Positions 2,707-57,922 of a stretch of DNA of 63,754 nt are shown piece by piece. The stretch's first letter is position 1, and each line of letters begins with the position of its first letter. The notes beneath the pieces are model-generated. The model worked only from the letters and a program-made list of their open reading frames with translations, did no database searches and was not told the DNA's origin. Origin of the DNA: Alphaproteobacteria bacterium (GTDB lineage: Bacteria; Pseudomonadota; Alphaproteobacteria; TMED109); the NCBI GenBank assembly GCA_022824395.1, contig JAJDZX010000107.1:1-63754 (forward strand). The letters run 5' to 3'. The position numbers and the translations under genes are program-made.

Positions 2707-2840
2707 TTTTCGACCTTCGATAAGATAGTGAATGCTTTTTCGATTTTGATGAATGATTTTCGGCGAAATCGTTGTATGGTATATTTCGACAGAATATGAA
2801 CAGGTCGTATTGTTTTCGACTAACGTGAAGGTATTTCGAC
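2707..2840 (+). promoter_or_regulatory. six-copy TTTTCGAC-type repeat array upstream of fic
   Basis: An AT-rich island in GC-rich DNA with six near-identical octamers, all on the plus strand, at 2707, 2737, 2757, 2783, 2813 and 2833: TTTTCGAC, TTTTCGAT, TTTTCGGC, ATTTCGAC, TTTTCGAC, ATTTCGAC. The spacings are 30, 20, 26, 30 and 20, so the array is two copies of a 30-20 triad, close to multiples of a helical turn. A TATATT at 2780-2785 could be a -10 box. The last copy ends three bases before the fic ATG. This looks like an operator or iteron-like array; the binding protein is unknown. Confidence 0.6.
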
Positions 2841-2842
2841 CG

Positions 2843-4378
2843 ATGGAGCTGAATTGCGAAACGCCTCCGACATTCCAGGATCGCCTGGTCCCGAAAGAGA
2901 GAAGGCTGGCAGGTTGGGCCGCGCTGGTTCATGGCCTCGGGATCGCGGCCCCGGTCCGGGCCGCGAGCACCGTTGCCGACGGCTACATCAAGGGCAGCAA
3001 GCGCGGAGAAGGCGGCTGGACCGTTTTCGACAAGCGGTACTGGCCGGGCCACCACGTCATGGATCATGTCAGTTTCGCCCTTCGCCACGAGTGGTTCGAC
3101 CCCCTCGTGCTCAAACGTGTGTTCGACGCCGTGGACCCGGACACGATTTCGGCCTTCGTGCGCGATGCGCCGACCGGGACGGTCACCCGCCGGGTCTGGT
3201 TCTTCTACGAAACGATGACTGGCCGGCGACTGCCAATCGAGGACGCGCCGACCGTGACGGCCATCGACGCTCTCGCCCCCGAGAGTTATGTGACCAGCCA
3301 TGCAGCGCTATCGAAACGCCACCGTGTGCGGGACAACCTGCTTGGCACGGGCGGCTATTGCCCGGTCATTCGCCGCACCGAGGCCCTCGAAGACCATCGA
3401 AAACGCCGCCTCGCTGACAAAGCTGCAGAAACCGTAGGCGGATCCAGCCGACAACTGGTCTCCCGGGCCGCGAGCTTTCTGTTGCTGGCAGACAGCCGTG
3501 CCAGCTTCGCGATCGAAGGCGAGCGCCCGCTGCGCAGCCGGCTTGAGCGCTGGGGTCGCGCGGTCCGCCAGGCCGGCAAAAATCGACTGACACTCGATGA
3601 GCTCAACCGCCTGCACGGTGTCTTGATCGAGGATTCCCGCTTTGTCCGGGCTGGCCTGCGTCCTGACGGGGTGTTCGTCGGTGAGCGCGATCACAACGGC
3701 GATCCCCTGCCGGAATTCATCGGCGCACGGCCGGAAGATCTGCCTGCCCTGCTGGATGGCCTGTTCGCGGCCAATATGCGGATGACCGCGAGCGCGATCG
3801 ATCCGGTGCTTCAGGCAACGGCCACAGCGTTCGGCTTCGTCTACATCCACCCGTATCAGGATGGAAACGGCCGCCTGCACCGCTGCCTGATCCATCATGT
3901 GTTGGCGGAACGCGACTTCACGCCGCCGGGCATGGTCTTTCCCGTTTCCACGGTGATACAGGACCGGATCGATGAGTACCGCCGCACGCTGCAAGGTCAT
4001 TCCGGACCGCTCACGCCTTTCATCAACTGGCGGCCGACGATGAACCGGAACGTCGAGATCCTCGATGACACATCCGATCTATACCGGTACTTCGACTGTA
4101 CGGCTGAAGCCGAGTTTCTGTATGCCTGTGTCGCCCGCACCGTCGAACACGACCTGCCGGAAGAGATCGATTACTTGCGCCGACACGACGAAGCGCAGCG
4201 CCGCATCATGGAGACGGTGGAAATGCCCGACCGACTGGCGCAGGACCTGATCATGTTTATCCGGCAGAACAGCGGGAAGCTGCCGAAAAGGCGCCGCACG
4301 AGGGAGTTCGCGGCTCTGACCGATGAAGAGGCGGCCCAGATCGAGGCCATTTGCGGAGAGGTCTTCGGCAATGGCTGA
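2843..4378 (+). CDS. Fic family protein (class II, N-terminal inhibitory motif)
   Basis: A 511-residue Fic-domain protein, expected to transfer AMP or another nucleotide-type group to a protein hydroxyl. The Fic loop HPYQDGNGRLHR begins at about residue 336 with the catalytic His. The self-inhibitory motif S-x-x-x-E-G (SFAIEG) lies at about residue 221, ahead of the Fic core, which makes it class II. The C-terminal third is charged and helical and may bind target or DNA. The ATG at 2843 is chosen because homology starts after it and the repeat array fills the space upstream. No separate antitoxin gene is adjacent. The AT-rich promoter suggests horizontal acquisition. Confidence 0.88.
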   Translation: MELNCETPPTFQDRLVPKERRLAGWAALVHGLGIAAPVRAASTVADGYIKGSKRGEGGWTVFDKRYWPGHHVMDHVSFALRHEWFDPLVLKRVFDAVDPDTISAFVRDAPTGTVTRRVWFFYETMTGRRLPIEDAPTVTAIDALAPESYVTSHAALSKRHRVRDNLLGTGGYCPVIRRTEALEDHRKRRLADKAAETVGGSSRQLVSRAASFLLLADSRASFAIEGERPLRSRLERWGRAVRQAGKNRLTLDELNRLHGVLIEDSRFVRAGLRPDGVFVGERDHNGDPLPEFIGARPEDLPALLDGLFAANMRMTASAIDPVLQATATAFGFVYIHPYQDGNGRLHRCLIHHVLAERDFTPPGMVFPVSTVIQDRIDEYRRTLQGHSGPLTPFINWRPTMNRNVEILDDTSDLYRYFDCTAEAEFLYACVARTVEHDLPEEIDYLRRHDEAQRRIMETVEMPDRLAQDLIMFIRQNSGKLPKRRRTREFAALTDEEAAQIEAICGEVFGNG

Positions 4379-13589: not shown

Positions 13590-13865
13590 CGCCTATCTTG
13601 TGGGTGCTGGCTTCGGCTGGCTATGGCGATAAACGTCTCATGCAATAGGCGTGTTGGACCCGGGGGCAGTGCCCGGCGCCTCCACCAGTTTTCCGACCGG
13701 TCACGCGGTCGGCCACGGGGGCGATCCAGGATCGACAACCGCTGAAAGATGGGGGCCTTCGCCCGGCATGGTACCGCCGTGACGGACCGAACTTAAAACT
13801 GCCAACGACAACAGTCGTGAGGTTGCTCTCGCTGCCTAACCAGTGAGAGGAACGACAGTTCCAAG
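13590..13865 (+). ncRNA. ssrA: circularly permuted two-piece tmRNA
   Basis: The acceptor piece comes first. T-stem CCGGG (13660-13664), 7-nt loop GGCAGTG and CCCGG (13672-13676) lead into acceptor strand CGCCTCC (13677-13683), discriminator A and encoded CCA ending at 13687. A short spacer holding hairpin CCGACCG/CGGTCGG follows. The coding piece begins GGGGGCG (13717-13723), which pairs with the acceptor strand with one G-U. CAACCGC (13736-13742) pairs with GCGTGTTG (13649-13656) with one bulged base, making P2. TAAAACT precedes the tag, GCC at 13801 to TAA at 13837-13839, which encodes ANDNSREVALAA. Together this is the alphaproteobacterial two-piece form. The outer ends are estimates. It rescues stalled ribosomes and marks products for ClpXP. 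Confidence 0.88.
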
Positions 13866-13969
13866 TCCCTTCCGCTTCACACGGTAGGGCGGGGTTCGGG
13901 GGCACCCGGCAACAGAAGCCCCCATCGAAGCCCTCCCCCGTGACGCAGCCGTGTAGCCCGTGTGCGCCT

Positions 13970-18671: not shown

Positions 18672-19769
18672 CTAGTCGGCGCCCGGCCAGCGCCGGACGC
18701 CGAATTCTCCGACCAGCAGCACGCCGCCGTCGGCGAGCGGCAGGGCTGCCGAGATCCCGGCACGCGACGCCAGCCTGTGGCCGGCCACGCTCAGTCCGCC
18801 GTCGTCGCTGGTGAGCACGCTCCCTTCCAGGCCGGTCACGACGATCCGGCCGGACGGGAGCCGGACGGCTCCGGTCAGGGTTGCCCGGGTGTGGGTGGTC
18901 ACCTCCGTCCAGGTTTCGCCGCCGTCCGCCGAGCGGAACAGATGGCCCCTGAGCCCCGCCAGCAGCACCTGGTCCTCGTCGAGCGCCAGCCCGCCGAACC
19001 ACGAGCCGGTATAGGGCGAGGACAGTTCGCGCCAGGTCGCGCCGCCGTCGTCGGAGCGGTAGGCGACCCCGGCTTCCGCGGCGATGAACAGGCGTTGCGA
19101 CGGCGGCCGCGACGAATCAGTCGCCGGTCCCGCCGCGGGCACCAGCGCGTTCAGGTGGAAGTCGTTCGCGCTGATGGTCCGCGGGGTCCAGGTCTCGCCG
19201 CCATCCTCGGTCGCTAGGAAGTAGCCGTAGGCCCCGACCGCGAAGCCGGTGTCCGCATCGCGAAACCAGACGTCGAGCAGGGGGAGTTCCTCCTCCGGCG
19301 CCTGGTGCACCATCGACCAGGTCGCGCCGCCGTCGCCGGTCCGGAGGATCACCGCGTCGTGTCCCACGGCCCAGCCCGTGCGCGCGTCGTGCATGTGGAC
19401 CGCCGTGAGCAGGACGCGGGTGGGCACCTCGGCCTGCGTCCAGCTGGCGCCGTCGTCGGTGGATACCAGCACGTGGCCACGTGCCCCCACCACCACCAGC
19501 CGCGAGCCGACCGCGGCGCCGTCGAGCAGCAGGGATTCGATCGCGAGCGGCGCCTGTACGGCCGTCTCGGCTCCCGCGCTCCCCGGCGCGAGGAAGGCCA
19601 GCAGGCCGGCGATCGCGAGGTGCGCCGCCCGCCGCCGCGAACGAGCGCGGGCCGGGGCGCCCCGGACCGGAAGTGGGGGTCCCGTCCGCGGCGCTACGCA
19701 CGGGGGCGTCACGACCCCGGCGTAAACGCCGCGCGCTTCACGCGTCCAGGTGGACCGGAATGGACTCAC
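18672..19769 (-). CDS. YCF48/BNR-repeat beta-propeller protein, exported
   Basis: A 365-residue secreted protein. A basic stretch and hydrophobic AAHLAIAGLLAFLAPGSAGA form a signal peptide ending near residue 67. The mature part is a repeat protein with several Asp-box/BNR motifs: STDDGASWTQ, RTGDGGATWSM, ATEDGGETWTP, RSDDGGATWRE, RSADGGETWTE, and TSDDGG. Such YCF48-like propellers sit next to MMPL transporters in many proteobacteria. The start at GTG 19769 is uncertain; GTG 19712 would give a shorter leader. Confidence 0.85.
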   Translation of the reverse strand: MSPFRSTWTREARGVYAGVVTPPCVAPRTGPPLPVRGAPARARSRRRAAHLAIAGLLAFLAPGSAGAETAVQAPLAIESLLLDGAAVGSRLVVVGARGHVLVSTDDGASWTQAEVPTRVLLTAVHMHDARTGWAVGHDAVILRTGDGGATWSMVHQAPEEELPLLDVWFRDADTGFAVGAYGYFLATEDGGETWTPRTISANDFHLNALVPAAGPATDSSRPPSQRLFIAAEAGVAYRSDDGGATWRELSSPYTGSWFGGLALDEDQVLLAGLRGHLFRSADGGETWTEVTTHTRATLTGAVRLPSGRIVVTGLEGSVLTSDDGGLSVAGHRLASRAGISAALPLADGGVLLVGEFGVRRWPGAD

Positions 19770-19819
19770 CTCGGGGTGGCAGCCGAGGCAGCCGTCGTTT
19801 CAGCCGTGGAGTGCCGCGT

Positions 19820-21199
19820 TCACCGCCGACCTGCGCGGCGCAGCGCCGCGGGCGTGAAGTCGCGTGATGTCAGGCCCGAGTCCCACGTGCACATCGGGAA
19901 CTCATTGTCGAGGCCGAAGGCGAGGTAGCGGCCGGCCTGAAGATCCGTATGCACCTCGAGCGTCGACCACATCAGCGGCTTCTCGTAGTAGTTGACGACG
20001 TGGGCTTCCGACACCCGCCAGAGCTGGTCCCGGTTGTCGTAAATGTCTCCGACCAGGATCTGCCACGAATCCTCGTCGACGTACAGGGTGCGCCGCTTGT
20101 AGATGTGGGTCGCGCCCTCCTTGAGCGTGGCTTCCACCACCCAGACCCGGTGCAGCTCGTAGCGCAGCAGTTCCGGGTTGACGTGCAAGGGGTGGAGGAT
20201 GTCGGTGAAGGCGAGGTCGCCGCCGTGCAGCCGGTACGAGTTGTACGGGACGTACAGTTCGCGCTTGCCGACAAGCTCCCAGTCGTAGCGGTCCACGGCC
20301 CCGTTGAACATGTCGAACTGGTCCGCGGTCCGCAGGCCGTCGGCCGACGTGCCCGGGTTGTCGTAGGCGATGTTCGGCGCCCGCCGTACCCGGCGCTGAC
20401 CGGGGTTGTAGGTCCAGGCGTTCCGCGGCTCGCGGAACTGGTTCATGGTCTCGTGCACCAGGACGATATCGCCCGCGAGCCGGGCCGGCGCGAGCGTTTC
20501 CTGCTTGAACAGGATCATCGTGTTGCCGAGTTCGTCCAGCGTCATGTCCGGGAGCGAGTAGCGCAGCTCGATCTCGAGGCTCTGCTTCACCAGCGTGAAG
20601 TCGCCGCCGCGGGTGACGGCGGCCTGCCCGATGACGCACGCTACCGACTCGCCCCGGTAGCGCAGCAGGTGGTTCCAGATCACCTCCAGGCCGTTGGCGG
20701 GAATCGGGAACGGGATGCCGATCACCGCATCACCCACGCCATTGCCATCGTCGATCAGCTTGGCAGTGGCGGCGACGTTCCGGGTGGCGTCGTAGATCCG
20801 TTGGGGAACCGAGGCGCTCCGCCGGGTGGGATAGACCTGCATGTTGAAACTCGGATACGTCTCCAGCAGGCGCTGGTGTCCGATCGAGAGCAAGTCGCGG
20901 TGCTCATCCAGGTTGCCGGCGTCGATGACGAACAGCGGCGCATCGGCAGCGTACGGATCGCGGTGATGCTCGCCGACGCTGTAGCCGGCCGGCGGCTCCG
21001 TGATGCCGCCGGTCCACTCCGGGATGGTGCCCGCGGCGTTGCCGGCCCGCTCGCCGCCCAGCGGCGTGAGGTCGGCGCCGAGCCGCGCAATCTCTTCCGC
21101 CGGAATCTCGGCGGCGGCGGGGGCGGCGAGGACGCAGCCGAGGACGAGGGCAGCGCCCAGACGAATCGTGGTCGAACTCGTGTCATTCATGGCGTTCAT
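19820..21199 (-). CDS. DUF1329 family lipoprotein-sorting-like protein
   Basis: A 459-residue exported protein with signal peptide IRLGAALVLGCVLAAPAAA. The DUF1329 body includes LTPLGGERAGNAAGTIPEWTG, PFPIPANGLEVIWNHLLRYRG, AWTYNPGQRRVRRAPNIAYDN and FNGAVDRYDWELVGKRELY, a LolA/LolB-like fold. It likely carries a hydrophobic molecule across the periplasm. It starts 12 bases after the DUF1302 gene, so the two are cotranscribed. Confidence 0.9.
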   Translation of the reverse strand: MNAMNDTSSTTIRLGAALVLGCVLAAPAAAEIPAEEIARLGADLTPLGGERAGNAAGTIPEWTGGITEPPAGYSVGEHHRDPYAADAPLFVIDAGNLDEHRDLLSIGHQRLLETYPSFNMQVYPTRRSASVPQRIYDATRNVAATAKLIDDGNGVGDAVIGIPFPIPANGLEVIWNHLLRYRGESVACVIGQAAVTRGGDFTLVKQSLEIELRYSLPDMTLDELGNTMILFKQETLAPARLAGDIVLVHETMNQFREPRNAWTYNPGQRRVRRAPNIAYDNPGTSADGLRTADQFDMFNGAVDRYDWELVGKRELYVPYNSYRLHGGDLAFTDILHPLHVNPELLRYELHRVWVVEATLKEGATHIYKRRTLYVDEDSWQILVGDIYDNRDQLWRVSEAHVVNYYEKPLMWSTLEVHTDLQAGRYLAFGLDNEFPMCTWDSGLTSRDFTPAALRRAGRR

Positions 21200-21211
21200 G
21201 GCCTCGGATTC

Positions 21212-23443
21212 TCAGAACGAGTACTTGACGGAGGCGGAGATGAAGTCGCGATCGAGCAGCTCGTTGCCGTCGCCCGCGTACCGCGTGAAGCCGACGTTGG
21301 CCTGCCAGCGGCTGAGATAGTCGGCGCGTATCCCGATCGTAAGCGCAGTCCGCCCCTCCACGAAGGGGCCGCTAGGTGCGGGGCTGTTGCCGCCGACATC
21401 GTGCAGGAACTGCATGTAGGGGAAGAGATTGACCGATCCGATCGCGTTGTTGTAGTCGAGACGCGCTGCGATTCGGTACCCCCACGAGGTGGCGTCCGCG
21501 TCGGCTTCATGGGGCGTGTCGTCGGGAGCGGTCGGGGGCGGGGCCGGCAGGATGCCGCCCGCCGGACTCTCGATTGGGGTCATGCGCCGGTCCGGCATGT
21601 CGTGGACATGCATCAGCGCGGCTTCCATGACGAACGCGAGGCTGTCCGCTCCCATGGTGGGTCCGAAGACCTTGGTTGCGGTGGCCTGGACCTGGCTCAC
21701 GTCGCGCCTGACGTAGCCCTCCACCTGCGTCGGCTGGTAGGCCGCGAGATAGCCGGGGAGACGCTCCGGGGCGCCGGAAGCCAGTCCCAGCGCCGTGATG
21801 ATCGGCCGGAGACCGTCCTCGAGGACTTTCCGCTCGGCCCGCTGCAGCGGCGCGTCGGCACGCAGGGAGTACTCCCCCTGCAATGCCCAGCCGGAAGCGC
21901 CGAGCACCGTGTTGAAGCTCACGCCGACGAGGCGGATGTCCTCGGGGTACTCGAGGAAGTACCGGCCGCCCTTCCCGTACCGGTCGATTGCCAGGGCAGC
22001 AGCGATTCCGCCGACCTGCGCACCTACTTGCGCTTCGACTTCAGCTGCGACGGCTCGTCTGACCTCGTTGATGCCCGTTTGGATGGTGCTTGCCGCATCC
22101 TCCGGCGGTAGCAATCCGGCCTGAACCGCCTGCTGGACGTTTTCCGTGATCTCTGCGGCGTGCCGGGCGATCTCGGTCCCGGCGGCCGCGCTTGCGGTAG
22201 CGCCCACGGTGGCTGCGGTTGTGGAAGTCGGCCTGCCGATGGCGTCGGCCGCGAAGAGCCCCGCCTGCACGCTGCTGACATCCGCGGTCTGCGCGCCGAC
22301 CGTGGGCAGCCGGCTGTGGTAGTTGATGAGGTAGAAGCCGAACTCGGTATCGTTCAGTTCCTCGGCAAGGTACCGCACCGCCATGCCCCACTGGCCGGAG
22401 GCGTCGGGCGAGCGGTCCGGGCCGCGCAGCACGCTCGCGAAGTCCTCATCGAATGCCGCCTGCGGGCGTTGCGGCGCGGGGATCAACTCCCCGGTCAGCG
22501 GGTTCGGCACCGTGTAGGCGGCCAGGTCCGCATTGATCGCCGCCGTCAGCGGGCCGAATCCAAACCCCCGGTCCCAGAGTTGCTGCTGGCCGGGCAGGAG
22601 GGCTTCATAAATGTTGGTAATGACGGCCTTTCTCGCACCCGGTCCCGCGTAGTCGGTGCTCGAGAAGTAGCTCCCGACCGGATCGATCCGGGTCTCGTCC
22701 CAGTCAAACTGGTAGAAGCCTTCGACCGACAGGGTGTCGGTCGGCGCGACCGCCACCGAGGCCAGCCCCGCGGGCAGCAGCGCTTCCCGGAGCTCCGAAC
22801 CCGGCAGCCTGAGCTTGCTCACGTCGAAGGGGTTGACGGCGTTGATGCCGTTCGGGATGAAGGTGCTCTCCCCCCAGTTCAGCACGTGCCGGCCCAGCCG
22901 GACGTCGATGGGCATGTCGCCGGCGTCGAATGCGGCGGTGACGTACGCGTCGAGGATCTCGACATCGCTGCCCACGCGCTCCTTCGCCTCCTCGCTCAGC
23001 GGGGTGCGCTCGCGATCGCCGTTCTCATTTTCGAAGTCGAGGAAACCTGTGGCCCGGACGAACGCGCCGAAGTCGCCGGTCCGGATGTCGAGATCCGAGG
23101 TCACCTTCGAGGCGTTGCTGACGACGCCGCGATCGTAGTTGAGATCGCCGTCGTTGCCGTTGACGTCGTCGGCCAGAACGCCGTCGCGTTCCTCGACCCG
23201 AATGGTCAGGCCGTGGGAGAGGATAGTGTCGAGGCTCCCCCGGTACCCGTTCTCATTGAACTCGACGGCCGTCGCGGGCCCGGCTCGGAGTAGGCCGCTG
23301 CCGAGTGCGACGATCGTGGCCAGGGCGATCGGTCCGACGCCGCACCTCCGGGCCCAGCCGGGGCGTCGCGTCGCGCCTCCAGGCGGCTGGCCGCACGCAG
23401 GATGAAGCGATCCGGTAGCGTCAGATTCACGAGTGTTCCGCAT
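21212..23443 (-). CDS. DUF1302 family outer-membrane protein
   Basis: A 743-residue exported beta-barrel protein. Positive residues and IALATIVALGSGLL give a signal peptide, followed by VEFNENGYRGSLDTILSHG at the mature start. RLGRHVLNWGESTFIPNGIN is the family's hallmark, and the chain ends in Tyr-Ser-Phe, the C-terminal aromatic of outer-membrane proteins. AGGAGGG precedes the ATG at 23443. It is the first gene of the operon with DUF1329, YCF48-like and MMPL genes. It may form the outer-membrane exit of that system. Confidence 0.9.
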   Translation of the reverse strand: MRNTRESDATGSLHPACGQPPGGATRRPGWARRCGVGPIALATIVALGSGLLRAGPATAVEFNENGYRGSLDTILSHGLTIRVEERDGVLADDVNGNDGDLNYDRGVVSNASKVTSDLDIRTGDFGAFVRATGFLDFENENGDRERTPLSEEAKERVGSDVEILDAYVTAAFDAGDMPIDVRLGRHVLNWGESTFIPNGINAVNPFDVSKLRLPGSELREALLPAGLASVAVAPTDTLSVEGFYQFDWDETRIDPVGSYFSSTDYAGPGARKAVITNIYEALLPGQQQLWDRGFGFGPLTAAINADLAAYTVPNPLTGELIPAPQRPQAAFDEDFASVLRGPDRSPDASGQWGMAVRYLAEELNDTEFGFYLINYHSRLPTVGAQTADVSSVQAGLFAADAIGRPTSTTAATVGATASAAAGTEIARHAAEITENVQQAVQAGLLPPEDAASTIQTGINEVRRAVAAEVEAQVGAQVGGIAAALAIDRYGKGGRYFLEYPEDIRLVGVSFNTVLGASGWALQGEYSLRADAPLQRAERKVLEDGLRPIITALGLASGAPERLPGYLAAYQPTQVEGYVRRDVSQVQATATKVFGPTMGADSLAFVMEAALMHVHDMPDRRMTPIESPAGGILPAPPPTAPDDTPHEADADATSWGYRIAARLDYNNAIGSVNLFPYMQFLHDVGGNSPAPSGPFVEGRTALTIGIRADYLSRWQANVGFTRYAGDGNELLDRDFISASVKYSF

Positions 23444-50258: not shown

Positions 50259-50337
50259 GCAGGAGCACAGCACTTCCCTTCGGGTCTTCTAACAAACGGC
50301 TTTATAAGCGTTTGTAGGGCTTGGCCTGTGCTCCTGC
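50259..50337 (+). other. nested-hairpin structured element upstream of dnaA
   Basis: A perfect 12-bp inverted repeat GCAGGAGCACAG (50259-50270) / CTGTGCTCCTGC (50326-50337) encloses 55 bases. Inside lies a strong stem ACAAACG (50292-50298) / CGTTTGT (50309-50315) extended by CTT/AAG with a TAT loop and one bulged G, and before it a small CCC-TTC-GGG hairpin. The structure ends 55 bases before the dnaA ATG. Either a leader RNA or a DNA element of the origin; not a standard terminator because no T-run follows. Confidence 0.6.
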
Positions 50338-50392
50338 CGAAATGGGCGCAGCGTCGGCCGCCGGTGCCGCGCCGGGGAAGGAGGACCGCCGG

Positions 50393-51706
50393 ATGGACCG
50401 ACACTGCTGGCACGCGGCGCAGTCCCGACTTCGCGACGAGATCAGTCCGGCAGCCTTCGAGAACTGGCTCCTGCCGCTGCAGCCGGTGGGGCCCGGCCTC
50501 GACCCGGTGGTGCTCGCGGCCCCGTCGGAGTTCCACCGGCAGTGGGTGCGGAGCCAGTACCTCGGGCAGATCCTCTCCAGCTGCACGGCAGCGGACCCGT
50601 CGGTGCGCCGAGTCGAGATCGTCGTGCAGGAGGATGCGGCCGTGCCGGCGGCGCAGCCGCCGCGGGCGGTGGCGCCCTCGCACCTCGGCAGCACGCTCGA
50701 TCGCCAGCGGACGTTCGACTCGTTTGTGGTCGGCGCCAGCAACCAGGTGGCCTATGCCGCGGCCCGGCGCGTGGCGGAGGGGCGGACCAGCGGGAATCGG
50801 AACCTGCTGTTCTTCTCCGGCGGCGTGGGTCTCGGCAAGACCCACCTGATGCACGCGATCGCCTGGGAGATCATGCGCCGCAGGGACCGCAACGTCGCCT
50901 ATCTCTCCTCCGAGAAATTCACGTCGGAGTTCGTCGCGGCGCTGCGCGCCAAGGACACTGACGCGTTCAAGCGTCGCTTCCGCACGGTCGACGTCTTCAT
51001 GGTCGACGACGTGCAGTTCCTGGCCAGCAGGGTGCAGACGCAGGAGGAGTTCTTCCACACGTTCGACGCGCTCTCGAACGAGGGGAAGCAGATCGTGGTG
51101 TCGGGCGACCGGGCGCCGGTCGACATGGAGGATGTGGACCGGCGGCTGCGTTCACGGCTCGGCGGCGGTCTCCTGGTCGAGCTGCGGGCGACCACCTACG
51201 AACTGCGCCTCAGCATTCTCCAGCGGCACCGCGGCCGCTACGACGAGGTCGACGTGCCGGATTCGGTGCTGGAGTTCCTGGCCAACAAGATCACCAACGA
51301 CATCCGCGAGCTCACGGGGGGGCTGGCGCGGGTCGTGGCGCACGCGGAATACACCAAGCAGCCGGTCACGCTCGGCCTCGTGCGCGACGCGCTGCCCGAC
51401 CTGCTGCGCGCGAACGAACGCCGGCTGACCGTGGAGATGATCCAGAAGGCGGTCACCGAGTATTACGGCCTCCGCCGCAACGACCTCGTCTCCCCCCGCC
51501 GCGAGCGCCGCATCGTGGGGCCGCGCCAGGTCGCGATGTGGCTCTGCAAGCAGCTCACGCCGATGAGCCTTCCCGACATCGGAAGCCGGTTCAACCGGGA
51601 TCACTCCACCGTGGTGCATTCCACCCGCCGGGTGGACGAACGGCTGGCGAACGAGCCCGTCCTGGTCGAGGATGTCGAGAAGCTGAAACACTGGATTCTC
51701 GACTGA
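50393..51706 (+). CDS. dnaA: chromosomal replication initiator DnaA
   Basis: A 437-residue initiator. Domain I starts ISPAAFENWLLPL; the AAA+ core has SGGVGLGKTHLMHAIA (Walker A) and VDVFMVDDVQFLA (Walker B). The C-terminal helix-turn-helix contains RQVAMWLCKQLTPMSLPDIG and FNRDHSTVVHSTRRV (the DnaA signature). AAGGAGG lies eight bases before the ATG at 50393. It is slightly short because domain II is reduced. Confidence 0.97.
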   Translation: MDRHCWHAAQSRLRDEISPAAFENWLLPLQPVGPGLDPVVLAAPSEFHRQWVRSQYLGQILSSCTAADPSVRRVEIVVQEDAAVPAAQPPRAVAPSHLGSTLDRQRTFDSFVVGASNQVAYAAARRVAEGRTSGNRNLLFFSGGVGLGKTHLMHAIAWEIMRRRDRNVAYLSSEKFTSEFVAALRAKDTDAFKRRFRTVDVFMVDDVQFLASRVQTQEEFFHTFDALSNEGKQIVVSGDRAPVDMEDVDRRLRSRLGGGLLVELRATTYELRLSILQRHRGRYDEVDVPDSVLEFLANKITNDIRELTGGLARVVAHAEYTKQPVTLGLVRDALPDLLRANERRLTVEMIQKAVTEYYGLRRNDLVSPRRERRIVGPRQVAMWLCKQLTPMSLPDIGSRFNRDHSTVVHSTRRVDERLANEPVLVEDVEKLKHWILD

Positions 51707-51816: not shown

Positions 51817-54252
51817 ATGAAATTTACGCTTGATCAAAAGGATCTGCTGGCGCCTTTGAAGCACGTGTACGGGGTGGCGGAACGCCGCGATCGCACCCGT
51901 GCGCCGATCCTCGCCCACACGCTGATCCGGGCCCGGCGCGGGGCCGAGGGAGAGGACGGCACGATCGCGTTCGACGCGTGCGACGACGAGGTTCTCTACG
52001 AGTCCGAAGAGCTCGCCGGCACCGTCGAGGAGGAGGGCGACGCCACCGTCGAGGCGCATCTCCTGCACGACCTGGTCAACCGGTTTCCGCGCAACACGGC
52101 GATCCGGGTGCGGATCACACCGACCGCGGAAGCGGGGGCCGGGGACGCCGCGGTCGAGGAAGCCACCGGGGCGTTGACCGAGCTCCCGGACTCCCTGGGC
52201 GGGGAGCCCGAGAAGCGGGTGATCATCGAAGCCGGCGGCAGCACGTTCGCCCTGCCCTCGCTGGCGCCGGACGACTTCCAGCGCTTCGCCGACCCGCCCG
52301 GCGAGGCGCCGCTGCAGCTGCCCGCGGCGGAGCTCCGGCGGCTGATCGATTCGTGCCGGGTCTCGATGTCGGACGACGACGCGCGGCTGCACCTCAACGG
52401 GATCTTCCTCCATACGGCGGACGAGGACGGGAAGACGCTGCTGCGGGCGGCGGCGACGGACGGACACCGGCTGGCGTGTTCGGCGCACGCGCTCACAGGC
52501 GGCGGCGGCGCGATCAAGGACGGCATCACGCTGCCCAAGAAGGCGGTCGAGCAGGTGGACGGGCTGCTGCGCAATGCGGATGGCGACGTCGCGCTCTGGT
52601 CGGGCGACAACCTGCTGCGGCTGAACGTCGGGTCGGTGTCGATGACGGCGCGTCTCAACCAGGGCGGCTTCCCCGACTACCGGCGCGTAATCCCCGAGGG
52701 GCTCGAGAACCGGCTGCGGGTCAGCCGGCAGGCACTGCTGCAGGCCATCGACCGGCTGTCGGCCGTGATCGACCCCAAGAGCCGGGGCATCACGTTCCAG
52801 ATCGGCGGTGACACCCTCGTCCTGAGCGCCGGCAATCCGGCCACCGGCCTCGGCCGCGAGGCGGTCGTCGCCGAGTACGCGGGCAAGGGGCTGGCCATCG
52901 GCTTCAACAGCGACTACGTGACCGCCTGCTGCCGCGTGATTCCGGATCAGGACCTCGTCCTCGAGTTCGACAGCCCGAAGCACGCGGCCGTCATTCGCGG
53001 GGCCACGAGCGACGAGACCGTGCACGTGGTCATGCCGCTCAACGTCTCCGCCCAGAGCCATGCGGCGCTTCTGGAGGAGGTCGGCGCCGGTTCCGACGTC
53101 GGCATGCGGTTCACGCAGGGGCGGAACACGCTGCTGGCGCCGCTGGCCCACATGCACGGCGTCGTGGAGCGCGTCGGCACCCGTCCGATCCTCTCGCACG
53201 TCCTGATCCGGGCGGAGGCGGGCAGCGTCGTGTTCGACGCCGGCGACAACCAGGTTCTGTACGAGTCCGAACGCCTGGCCGCCGAGGTCGACGTCGCCGG
53301 TGCGGCCACCGTCGAGGCGCCGCTCTTCTACAGCGTGGTCGGCAAGCTGGCGGAGGGGGACGACGTCCGGGTGTCCCTGGCCCCGGGTGGCGGCGCGGAC
53401 GCGACCGGAGACGGGGCCTGGCTGGTGGTCGAGGCCGGGCCGAGCAAGTTCATCCTGCCCTCGCTCTCAACCGATGATTTCCCCACGCTGCACGATCTGG
53501 AGTGGGAGCAGGGCTTCGAGCTCCCCGTCTCGGATCTCCGGGGACTGCTCAACTGGTGCCGGATCTCGATGTCGAACGATCCCGCCCGCATGCACCTGAA
53601 CGGCGTGTTCCTGCACGCCGTGGAGGAGAGTGGGCAGCACTTGCTCCGGGCCGGGGCCACCGACGGCCATCGCCTGTCACAGGCGGAATGCCAGTGCCCC
53701 GACGGGGCCGAATCGCTGGCGGCCGGGGTGACGCTGCCGCGCAAGGCCGTCGAGCAGGTCGAGCGGCTGCTGGCGGACGCCGACGGCGCCGTGCGGGTGG
53801 GCATGGGGAACGGCTGGATGCGGCTCGAGGTCGCGGACGTGGTGGTCGTCACCCGGCTCCACGAGAGCAAGTTCCCGGACTATCAGCGGGTGATCCCGAC
53901 GATCTGCAACAGCACGCTTCGGGTCAACTGCGCGATCCTGCAGCGGGCCCTTGAGCGCCTGGCGCTCGTGGCGGACCGGAAGAGCCGCGCGATCCGCTTC
54001 GAGTTGGGCGAGGAGAGTCTCACGGCCAGCGCCGGCGACCACCAGCACGGCGTGGGGCGCGAGGTTTTCGAAGGCACGTTCCGCGGGAACCCGGTCGTGA
54101 TCGGGTTCCGGTCCGAGTACCTCATGGAGTTCTGCCAGACCGCGCGGGGCGACGAGATGATCATGGAGTTTCAGGCGTCCGGCCAGCCGGCGGTGATCCG
54201 TGACACCGGAGAGGTCGGCAGGCTGCACGTCATCATGCCGATAAGGGTCTGA
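51817..54252 (+). CDS. dnaN: DNA polymerase III beta clamp, tandem fused double copy
   Basis: An 811-residue chain, twice the normal ~370. It holds two complete clamps: copy A (about 1-410), a linker of about 19 residues, and copy B (about 430-811). Both start alike (MKFTLDQKDLLAPLKHV; MRFTQGRNTLLAPLAHM) and both hold TDGHRL, FPDY-x-RVIP, and a C-terminal MPxxV. By eye they are about 40-50 percent identical, so the fusion is old, not a recent assembly join. Copy A ends MPLNV, lacking the usual Arg of the peptide pocket; copy B ends MPIRV. Copy A has an extra Ala/Glu-rich insert near 105-140. One chain could close into a ring by itself. Start ATG 51817 fits the canonical clamp N-terminus. Confidence 0.95.
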   Translation: MKFTLDQKDLLAPLKHVYGVAERRDRTRAPILAHTLIRARRGAEGEDGTIAFDACDDEVLYESEELAGTVEEEGDATVEAHLLHDLVNRFPRNTAIRVRITPTAEAGAGDAAVEEATGALTELPDSLGGEPEKRVIIEAGGSTFALPSLAPDDFQRFADPPGEAPLQLPAAELRRLIDSCRVSMSDDDARLHLNGIFLHTADEDGKTLLRAAATDGHRLACSAHALTGGGGAIKDGITLPKKAVEQVDGLLRNADGDVALWSGDNLLRLNVGSVSMTARLNQGGFPDYRRVIPEGLENRLRVSRQALLQAIDRLSAVIDPKSRGITFQIGGDTLVLSAGNPATGLGREAVVAEYAGKGLAIGFNSDYVTACCRVIPDQDLVLEFDSPKHAAVIRGATSDETVHVVMPLNVSAQSHAALLEEVGAGSDVGMRFTQGRNTLLAPLAHMHGVVERVGTRPILSHVLIRAEAGSVVFDAGDNQVLYESERLAAEVDVAGAATVEAPLFYSVVGKLAEGDDVRVSLAPGGGADATGDGAWLVVEAGPSKFILPSLSTDDFPTLHDLEWEQGFELPVSDLRGLLNWCRISMSNDPARMHLNGVFLHAVEESGQHLLRAGATDGHRLSQAECQCPDGAESLAAGVTLPRKAVEQVERLLADADGAVRVGMGNGWMRLEVADVVVVTRLHESKFPDYQRVIPTICNSTLRVNCAILQRALERLALVADRKSRAIRFELGEESLTASAGDHQHGVGREVFEGTFRGNPVVIGFRSEYLMEFCQTARGDEMIMEFQASGQPAVIRDTGEVGRLHVIMPIRV

Positions 54253-54263
54253 TCAGGGCCCGA

Positions 54264-57922
<3,659 letters not shown>

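Follow-up and report, generated by a model that had tools for sequence, protein, structure and literature searches.

A tandem dnaN fusion in an alphaproteobacterial genus, a likely natural single-chain beta clamp with one openable seam

As a rule, sliding clamps are portrayed as rings assembled from two or three separate subunits. In bacteria the ordinary clamp, DnaN, is a homodimer of one-unit chains, as stated in excerpts of a review (PMC11139829). Covalently joined versions have been made by engineering. In excerpts of one study, an 11-residue linker joins the E. coli beta units into a single chain, a design selected for the one openable seam that it leaves, and loader ATPase activity was equal to that with wild type (PMC3763527). 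A second source, likewise excerpted, relates as an unpublished observation that, in vivo, proteolysis cut the linker in the product of a tandem E. coli dnaN, after which the work switched to a workaround (PMC3022782). Single-chain yeast PCNA has been crystallised as a closed ring (PMC2824762, in excerpt). The sections available of two reviews (PMC11139829, PMC9690074) contain no natural clamp fusion, and the open-access literature searched yielded no natural single-chain double DnaN. The preliminary description of the present locus knew of no covalently joined double DnaN at all; that is too broad, given the engineered forms in the excerpts of PMC3763527 and PMC3022782, and holds for natural ones: within the open-access literature searched, only a natural double DnaN seems to be undescribed.

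The gene reported here shares with bacterial DnaN its descent, its three-domain units, most cleft residues and its place between dnaA and recF, and differs in that each chain holds two unlike units with one seam sealed by a linker. With the engineered single-chain E. coli beta and tandem dnaN it has in common two beta units joined head to tail, domain III to domain I, by a short linker and – as proposed here – a single openable seam; those constructs, however, are man-made and use the same subunit twice with an 11-residue or His6 linker (PMC3763527, PMC3022782, in excerpt), whereas the halves here occur naturally, share 42% identity and are linked through 19 residues. Engineered yeast PCNA offers the likeness of an entire clamp ring from one chain (again as proposed here), but it is man-made, has three PCNA units and belongs to another clamp family (excerpts of PMC2824762). 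The heteromeric 9-1-1 and Sulfolobus PCNA1-2-3 clamps resemble it in having non-identical units, which allows division of labour, but consist of three subunits on separate chains and are not DnaN (PMC9690074, the part available).

The window (the whole stretch of 63,754 nucleotides that was analysed) carries the classical DnaN locus in the order dnaA-dnaN-recF-gyrB, with homologous frames at the same loci of five relatives. Its features are as follows.

50321..51706, plus strand: dnaA (frame from the first TTG, the true start probably lying further in; named by reading of the translation)
51817..54252, plus strand: fused dnaN (open frame; Pfam and NCBIfam matches twice)
51817..52302, plus strand: N-half domain I, residues 1-162, one face of the presumed free seam (alignment to E. 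coli DnaN)
52123..52215, plus strand: extra loop in N-half domain I, residues ~103-133 (alignments)
52303..52695, plus strand: N-half domain II, residues 163-293 (alignment to E. coli DnaN; dN/dS)
52696..53046, plus strand: N-half domain III, residues 294-410, one face of the sealed seam (alignment to E. coli DnaN)
53047..53103, plus strand: linker, residues 411-429 (alignment; dN/dS; frame check in contigs)
53104..53505, plus strand: C-half domain I, residues 430-563, second face of the sealed seam (alignment to E. coli DnaN)
53506..53898, plus strand: C-half domain II, residues 564-694 (alignment to E. coli DnaN)
53899..54249, plus strand: C-half domain III, residues 695-811, second face of the presumed free seam (alignment to E. 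coli DnaN)
54264..55418, plus strand: recF (named by reading of the translation; homologous frames in relatives)
55418..57922, plus strand: gyrB (named by reading of the translation; homologous frames in relatives)

Elsewhere the window holds a tmRNA gene (13595-13930, flagged with an asterisk by ARAGORN, tag peptide ANDNSREVALAA), a frame with a Fic/DOC domain at 2753-4378 (PF02661, 50.9 bits) and, at 18672-23443, three successive minus-strand frames: YCF48-like/BNR, DUF1329 and DUF1302.

Translation of the dnaN frame gives 811 codons and a stop, with no internal stop. Domains I, II and III are each matched twice in the product (PF00712, PF02767, PF02768), and the dnaN model TIGR00663, for which the cut-off is 137.65, scores 190.1 bits on the N-half (residues 1-409) and 212.8 bits on the C-half. 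The domain order expected of DnaN is found twice in one chain, each half matching I-II-III when aligned to DnaN families, and in place of the one unit per chain of DnaN there are two diverged units, identical at 171 of 410 aligned columns (42%). The linker, 19 residues long (411-429, SAQSHAALLEEVGAGSDVG), separates an N-half that runs to residue 410 from a C-half that begins with residue 430. These results agree with the preliminary description, which had read from the sequence an 811-codon open frame with two full clamps joined by about 19 residues and had put their identity at 40–50%. An ATG start and the opening MKFTLDQ are common to all six species that bear the gene. An internal restart freeing the C-half was considered and, as judged at residue 430, rejected: the codon there is ATG in three of the six and CTG in the other three, with no conserved ATG. 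The length of the loop in N-half domain I varies between species (forms of 811 and 804 aa); it directly precedes the strand facing the presumed free seam, and its C-half counterpart is shorter.

By homology the chain is shown to fold, as far as sequence can tell, into two DnaN units, and the protein is DnaN by descent and probably by function, though not an ordinary homodimer. It is the sole clamp found in the lineage, and we consider it likely that it forms a natural single-chain, asymmetric beta clamp ring with one sealed and one openable seam. N-half domain III is predicted to pack on C-half domain I as in a dimer seam, with the 19-residue linker sealing it; C-half domain III would meet N-half domain I at the other seam and so close the chain into a six-domain ring round DNA. 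Such a ring would be a fixed pseudo-dimer of two unlike halves with one openable seam.

The fusion is present in six of the seven genomes of this genus of uncultured bacteria (G000 to G005), 88–96% identical to that of the window over 811 positions. Each of the six gives one match to the fused query and exactly two domain III matches, and no second clamp gene was found in them. The seventh bin, G006, has no dnaN match; clamp loss was rejected as the reading of this bin, which lacks a DnaA match as well (in a search run without a positive control; DnaA is 88–95% identical among the other six), and the dnaA-dnaN region is therefore probably missing from it. The frame is open through the linker in all eight contigs examined (the window, L035 and L049-L054), and the contig names are of differing styles (k141_, NODE_, scaffold_), which we take to reflect different assemblers. 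Scanned with two short peptides of this genus, queries that could miss distant fusions, named genomes yielded six fusions of full length (L049-L054) and, remotely related, one single clamp (L055). Two of the six, L050 (JAJEFC010000077.1) and L051 (JAJDZH010000184.1), are filed as Vicinamibacteria and Thermoanaerobaculia, respectively. These contigs align to the window at 93–95% and 85.5% over nearly their whole length, and their dnaN genes are 98.9% (L050 vs L049) and 99.6% (L051 vs L054) identical to others of the set: both are probably misbinned contigs of this alphaproteobacterial genus. Collapse of identical copies, named beforehand as one of the findings that would overturn the fusion, is excluded because the halves, at 42% identity, are far from identical. 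With this and its recurrence in six of the seven genomes, the original statement that the gene is not an assembly join of identical copies stands, and the fusion is confirmed as real and not an assembly accident.

Beyond the genus the arrangement was not encountered in the genomes of the family, class and phylum that were scanned. The order comprises 28 genomes in one family, seven of the genus and 21 others: 20 of these 21 have a single clamp (frames of 371-410 aa) and one has no match. A domain III match is present in 273 of the 289 Alphaproteobacteria examined and absent from 16; five outside the genus have at least two, and when these five and two genomes with long frames were rechecked, none had two clamps in one frame. 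A scan of the phylum with the fused profile matched 387 of 398 genomes and left 11 without a match. The window's own genome, the sole representative of the genus in that sample, matches over 1-811 with 1843 bits; the next best among the matches listed reaches 276 bits with one half covered. Neither the 289 Alphaproteobacteria nor the 398 genomes of the phylum gave a second fused case. One alphaproteobacterial genome, 6% contaminated, carries a second single clamp, divergent and in a frame of 364 aa, on a separate contig (G077:C67:3315-3674). Carriage of the fusion by phages or plasmids was rejected. When viral sequences were scanned with the fused alignment, the outcome was 25 pattern matches without a relative. 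Phage DnaN loci, examined as the best 80 of 579 relatives, show one listed match per locus and a longest open frame of 692 aa; the plasmid records listed (15 of 334) and the phage records listed (15 of 71) are all single clamps by span. Names of isolates, SB0662 for instance, would on our assumption point to sponge-associated bacteria.

The origin of the two halves can be read from a tree of 49 proteins. The six N-halves form one group and the six C-halves another (100/99 each), and the two are jointly one group (100/100) on a long stem – the sister placement being one of the two that the preliminary description had named as support – which does not fall with the 20 single clamps of the same family. 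Both halves are long branches in this tree, and the letter make-up of all six C-halves was flagged by the tree program. Mean identity between N- and C-halves is 43.6%, as against 31–35% between the halves and the family and class clamps, and the position of E. coli Tyr154 is His in both halves versus Tyr in all 35 family and class clamps. The sister grouping, the higher mutual identity and the common His point to a single duplication in the lineage before the species split: as gene and tree show it, both halves stem from one tandem dnaN duplication in the ancestor of the genus, fused in frame.

The DnaN halves are 30–35% identical to five relatives, which are 46–67% identical among themselves; the corresponding values are 57–61% and 55–74% for GyrB, 36–46% and 34–73% for DnaA, and 29–45% and 32–51% for RecF. 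By these identities the clamp has diverged fast, and more so than GyrB. Ratios of dN/dS, computed over five of the fifteen species pairs, are 0.106-0.197 for the N-half and 0.110-0.150 for the C-half, from which both halves are judged to be maintained under purifying selection. N-half domain III has the highest values of the six domains (0.170-0.331). An old and functional fusion had been suggested at the outset; its presence in all six clamp-bearing genomes of the genus, the sister relationship of the halves and the low dN/dS all speak for it.

If the chain were cut in the linker, the gene would encode a polyprotein and the working clamp would be a two-chain heterodimer with two openable seams; cutting at the linker did occur in vivo with the engineered tandem E. 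coli clamp (PMC3022782, in excerpt). The linker is indeed among the less constrained stretches (dN/dS 0.163-0.395, from few sites). We nevertheless hold such processing to be unlikely: the linker is 19 residues long in all six species with its sequence largely kept, and a fused gene has no obvious benefit when its product is always cut.

For the residues of the clefts and of the DNA-facing surface we used lists of positions that we presume to be correct, as with the clamp-binding motif below. Of 26 positions of the partner-binding cleft, 15 match E. coli in all 12 half sequences and 11 are not kept across all halves. On the DNA-facing list, both halves retain Arg152, Lys198, Arg246 and Pro249, and both have other residues in place of Tyr153 and Tyr154; Arg24 is kept in the N-half and lost in the C-half. 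Further differences between the halves at cleft and DNA-facing positions are Arg in the C-half at the Asn320 position and Asn in the N-half at the Arg365 position. These one-sided changes, the divergence to 42% identity and a constraint on domain II that is far stronger in the N-half (dN/dS 0.015-0.074, the most constrained part of the protein) than in the C-half (0.095-0.186) would suit a division in which the clamp function stays with one half and the other serves mainly to complete or regulate the ring. The core cleft residues are present in both halves, however, and purifying selection acts on both, so that a mere scaffold half appears decidedly improbable. At the position of E. coli Ile272 the C-half, on the free seam, has Leu and the N-half, on the sealed seam, has Ala; this pattern, of one residue, fits a free seam that would be held by side chains.

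For the ring itself, structure prediction gave a divided answer. AlphaFold2 applied to the full chain with six fused sequences returned a model of low confidence (pLDDT 53.8, pTM 0.35), which was set aside as evidence for a ring. The junction alone (window 52312-53511, 400 residues: N-half domains II and III, the linker and C-half domain I) was modelled with confidence (pLDDT 85.0, pTM 0.86) by a program whose training includes clamp structures. The alignment used (A5) has 41 rows – seven fused stretches, 14 half pieces and 20 of 70 phage fragments – picked so that fragments mostly lie on their own domain; two earlier alignments (A3, A4) had misplaced them. Among the 50 PDB matches listed for this model, 44 align over 243-258 columns at 27–33% identity, the ordinary II-III register, and one spans 331 columns with an rmsd of 16.9. 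The remaining five span 400-415 columns at 10–16% identity, with TM scores of 0.72-0.77 by query and 0.76-0.84 by target. Because clamp domains share one fold and follow each other in pseudo-sixfold order, we interpret these five as II-III-I' laid on I-II-III of one subunit; judged from match lengths, the sealed seam (N-half III against C-half I) thus seems to pack like consecutive ring domains. The preliminary description had set the linker at the domain III–domain I seam, where residues 411-429 indeed lie in the confident, seemingly ring-like junction model; it had named as support one chain predicted as a closed six-domain ring, and confident prediction extended to the junction (pTM 0.86), not to the full chain (pTM 0.35).

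Two fused chains might conceivably assemble in trans, as swapped dimers or larger rings, but this is most improbable given the ring-like packing predicted within one chain and the engineered single-chain E. coli beta, which has a shorter linker and acted as one functional clamp (excerpts of PMC3763527). The chance of an assembly or frame artefact joining two separate genes is negligible: every sequence does derive from metagenome assemblies, but the join and the linker length are identical in all eight contigs, six of them distinct species-level genomes, and the linker varies by codon substitutions only, without stops or frame changes.

A single-chain ring would also have to be loaded and used. 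In ordinary clamps the loader subunit delta acts at the seam adjoining the half to which it is bound, so that productive opening of the ring proposed here would need delta on the C-half. The N-half cleft would thereby be left for the polymerase or other partners, and the remainder of the loading cycle could be ordinary. Were the C-half domain III to N-half domain I seam the sole one to open, the loader would have to act on the C-half, and the two clefts may have divided their labour – the loader on the C-half, the N-half with its highly constrained domain II reserved for the replicative polymerase, the ring of a fixed functional polarity not found in homodimeric clamps – a reading that we put forward tentatively, as a possibility somewhat short of an even chance.

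The replicative DnaE of three genus sequences carries the motif QSSLFGDE (G000, G002) or QASLFGGE (G004), compared with QESMFGD, QTSLFGG or QENIFDN in relatives; on this sequence evidence, and with the cleft mostly kept in both halves, partners would bind the clamp by the usual QxxLF-type motif. All seven genus genomes also have a second, lower-scoring DnaE (470-523 bits; L083-L088, L090); two other members of the family, G007 and G010, have only one DnaE each. HolA was found above the cut-off, once, in each of the seven genus genomes with TIGR01128; an empty result with PF06144 was discarded, the Caulobacter control HolA having been missed too. In the clamp-binding loop, the residue at E. coli delta position 74 is Asp in all seven genus HolA, and in 31 other alphaproteobacterial HolA it varies, with Thr in 9, Met in 7, Leu in 5, Phe in 3, Gly in 3, Ile in 2 and Asp in 1 among them. 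A co-adapted loader was rejected on these counts: the position is variable, and Asp occurs in one of the 31 as well. In the comparison of the seven with the 31 there was no sign of a matching special change in HolA.

If the single-chain ring is true, it would mean that one openable seam suffices for both loading and unloading of a clamp in a living cell. It would, further, be a naturally occurring system whose clefts and seams could be altered one at a time, which is hard to do in homodimers.
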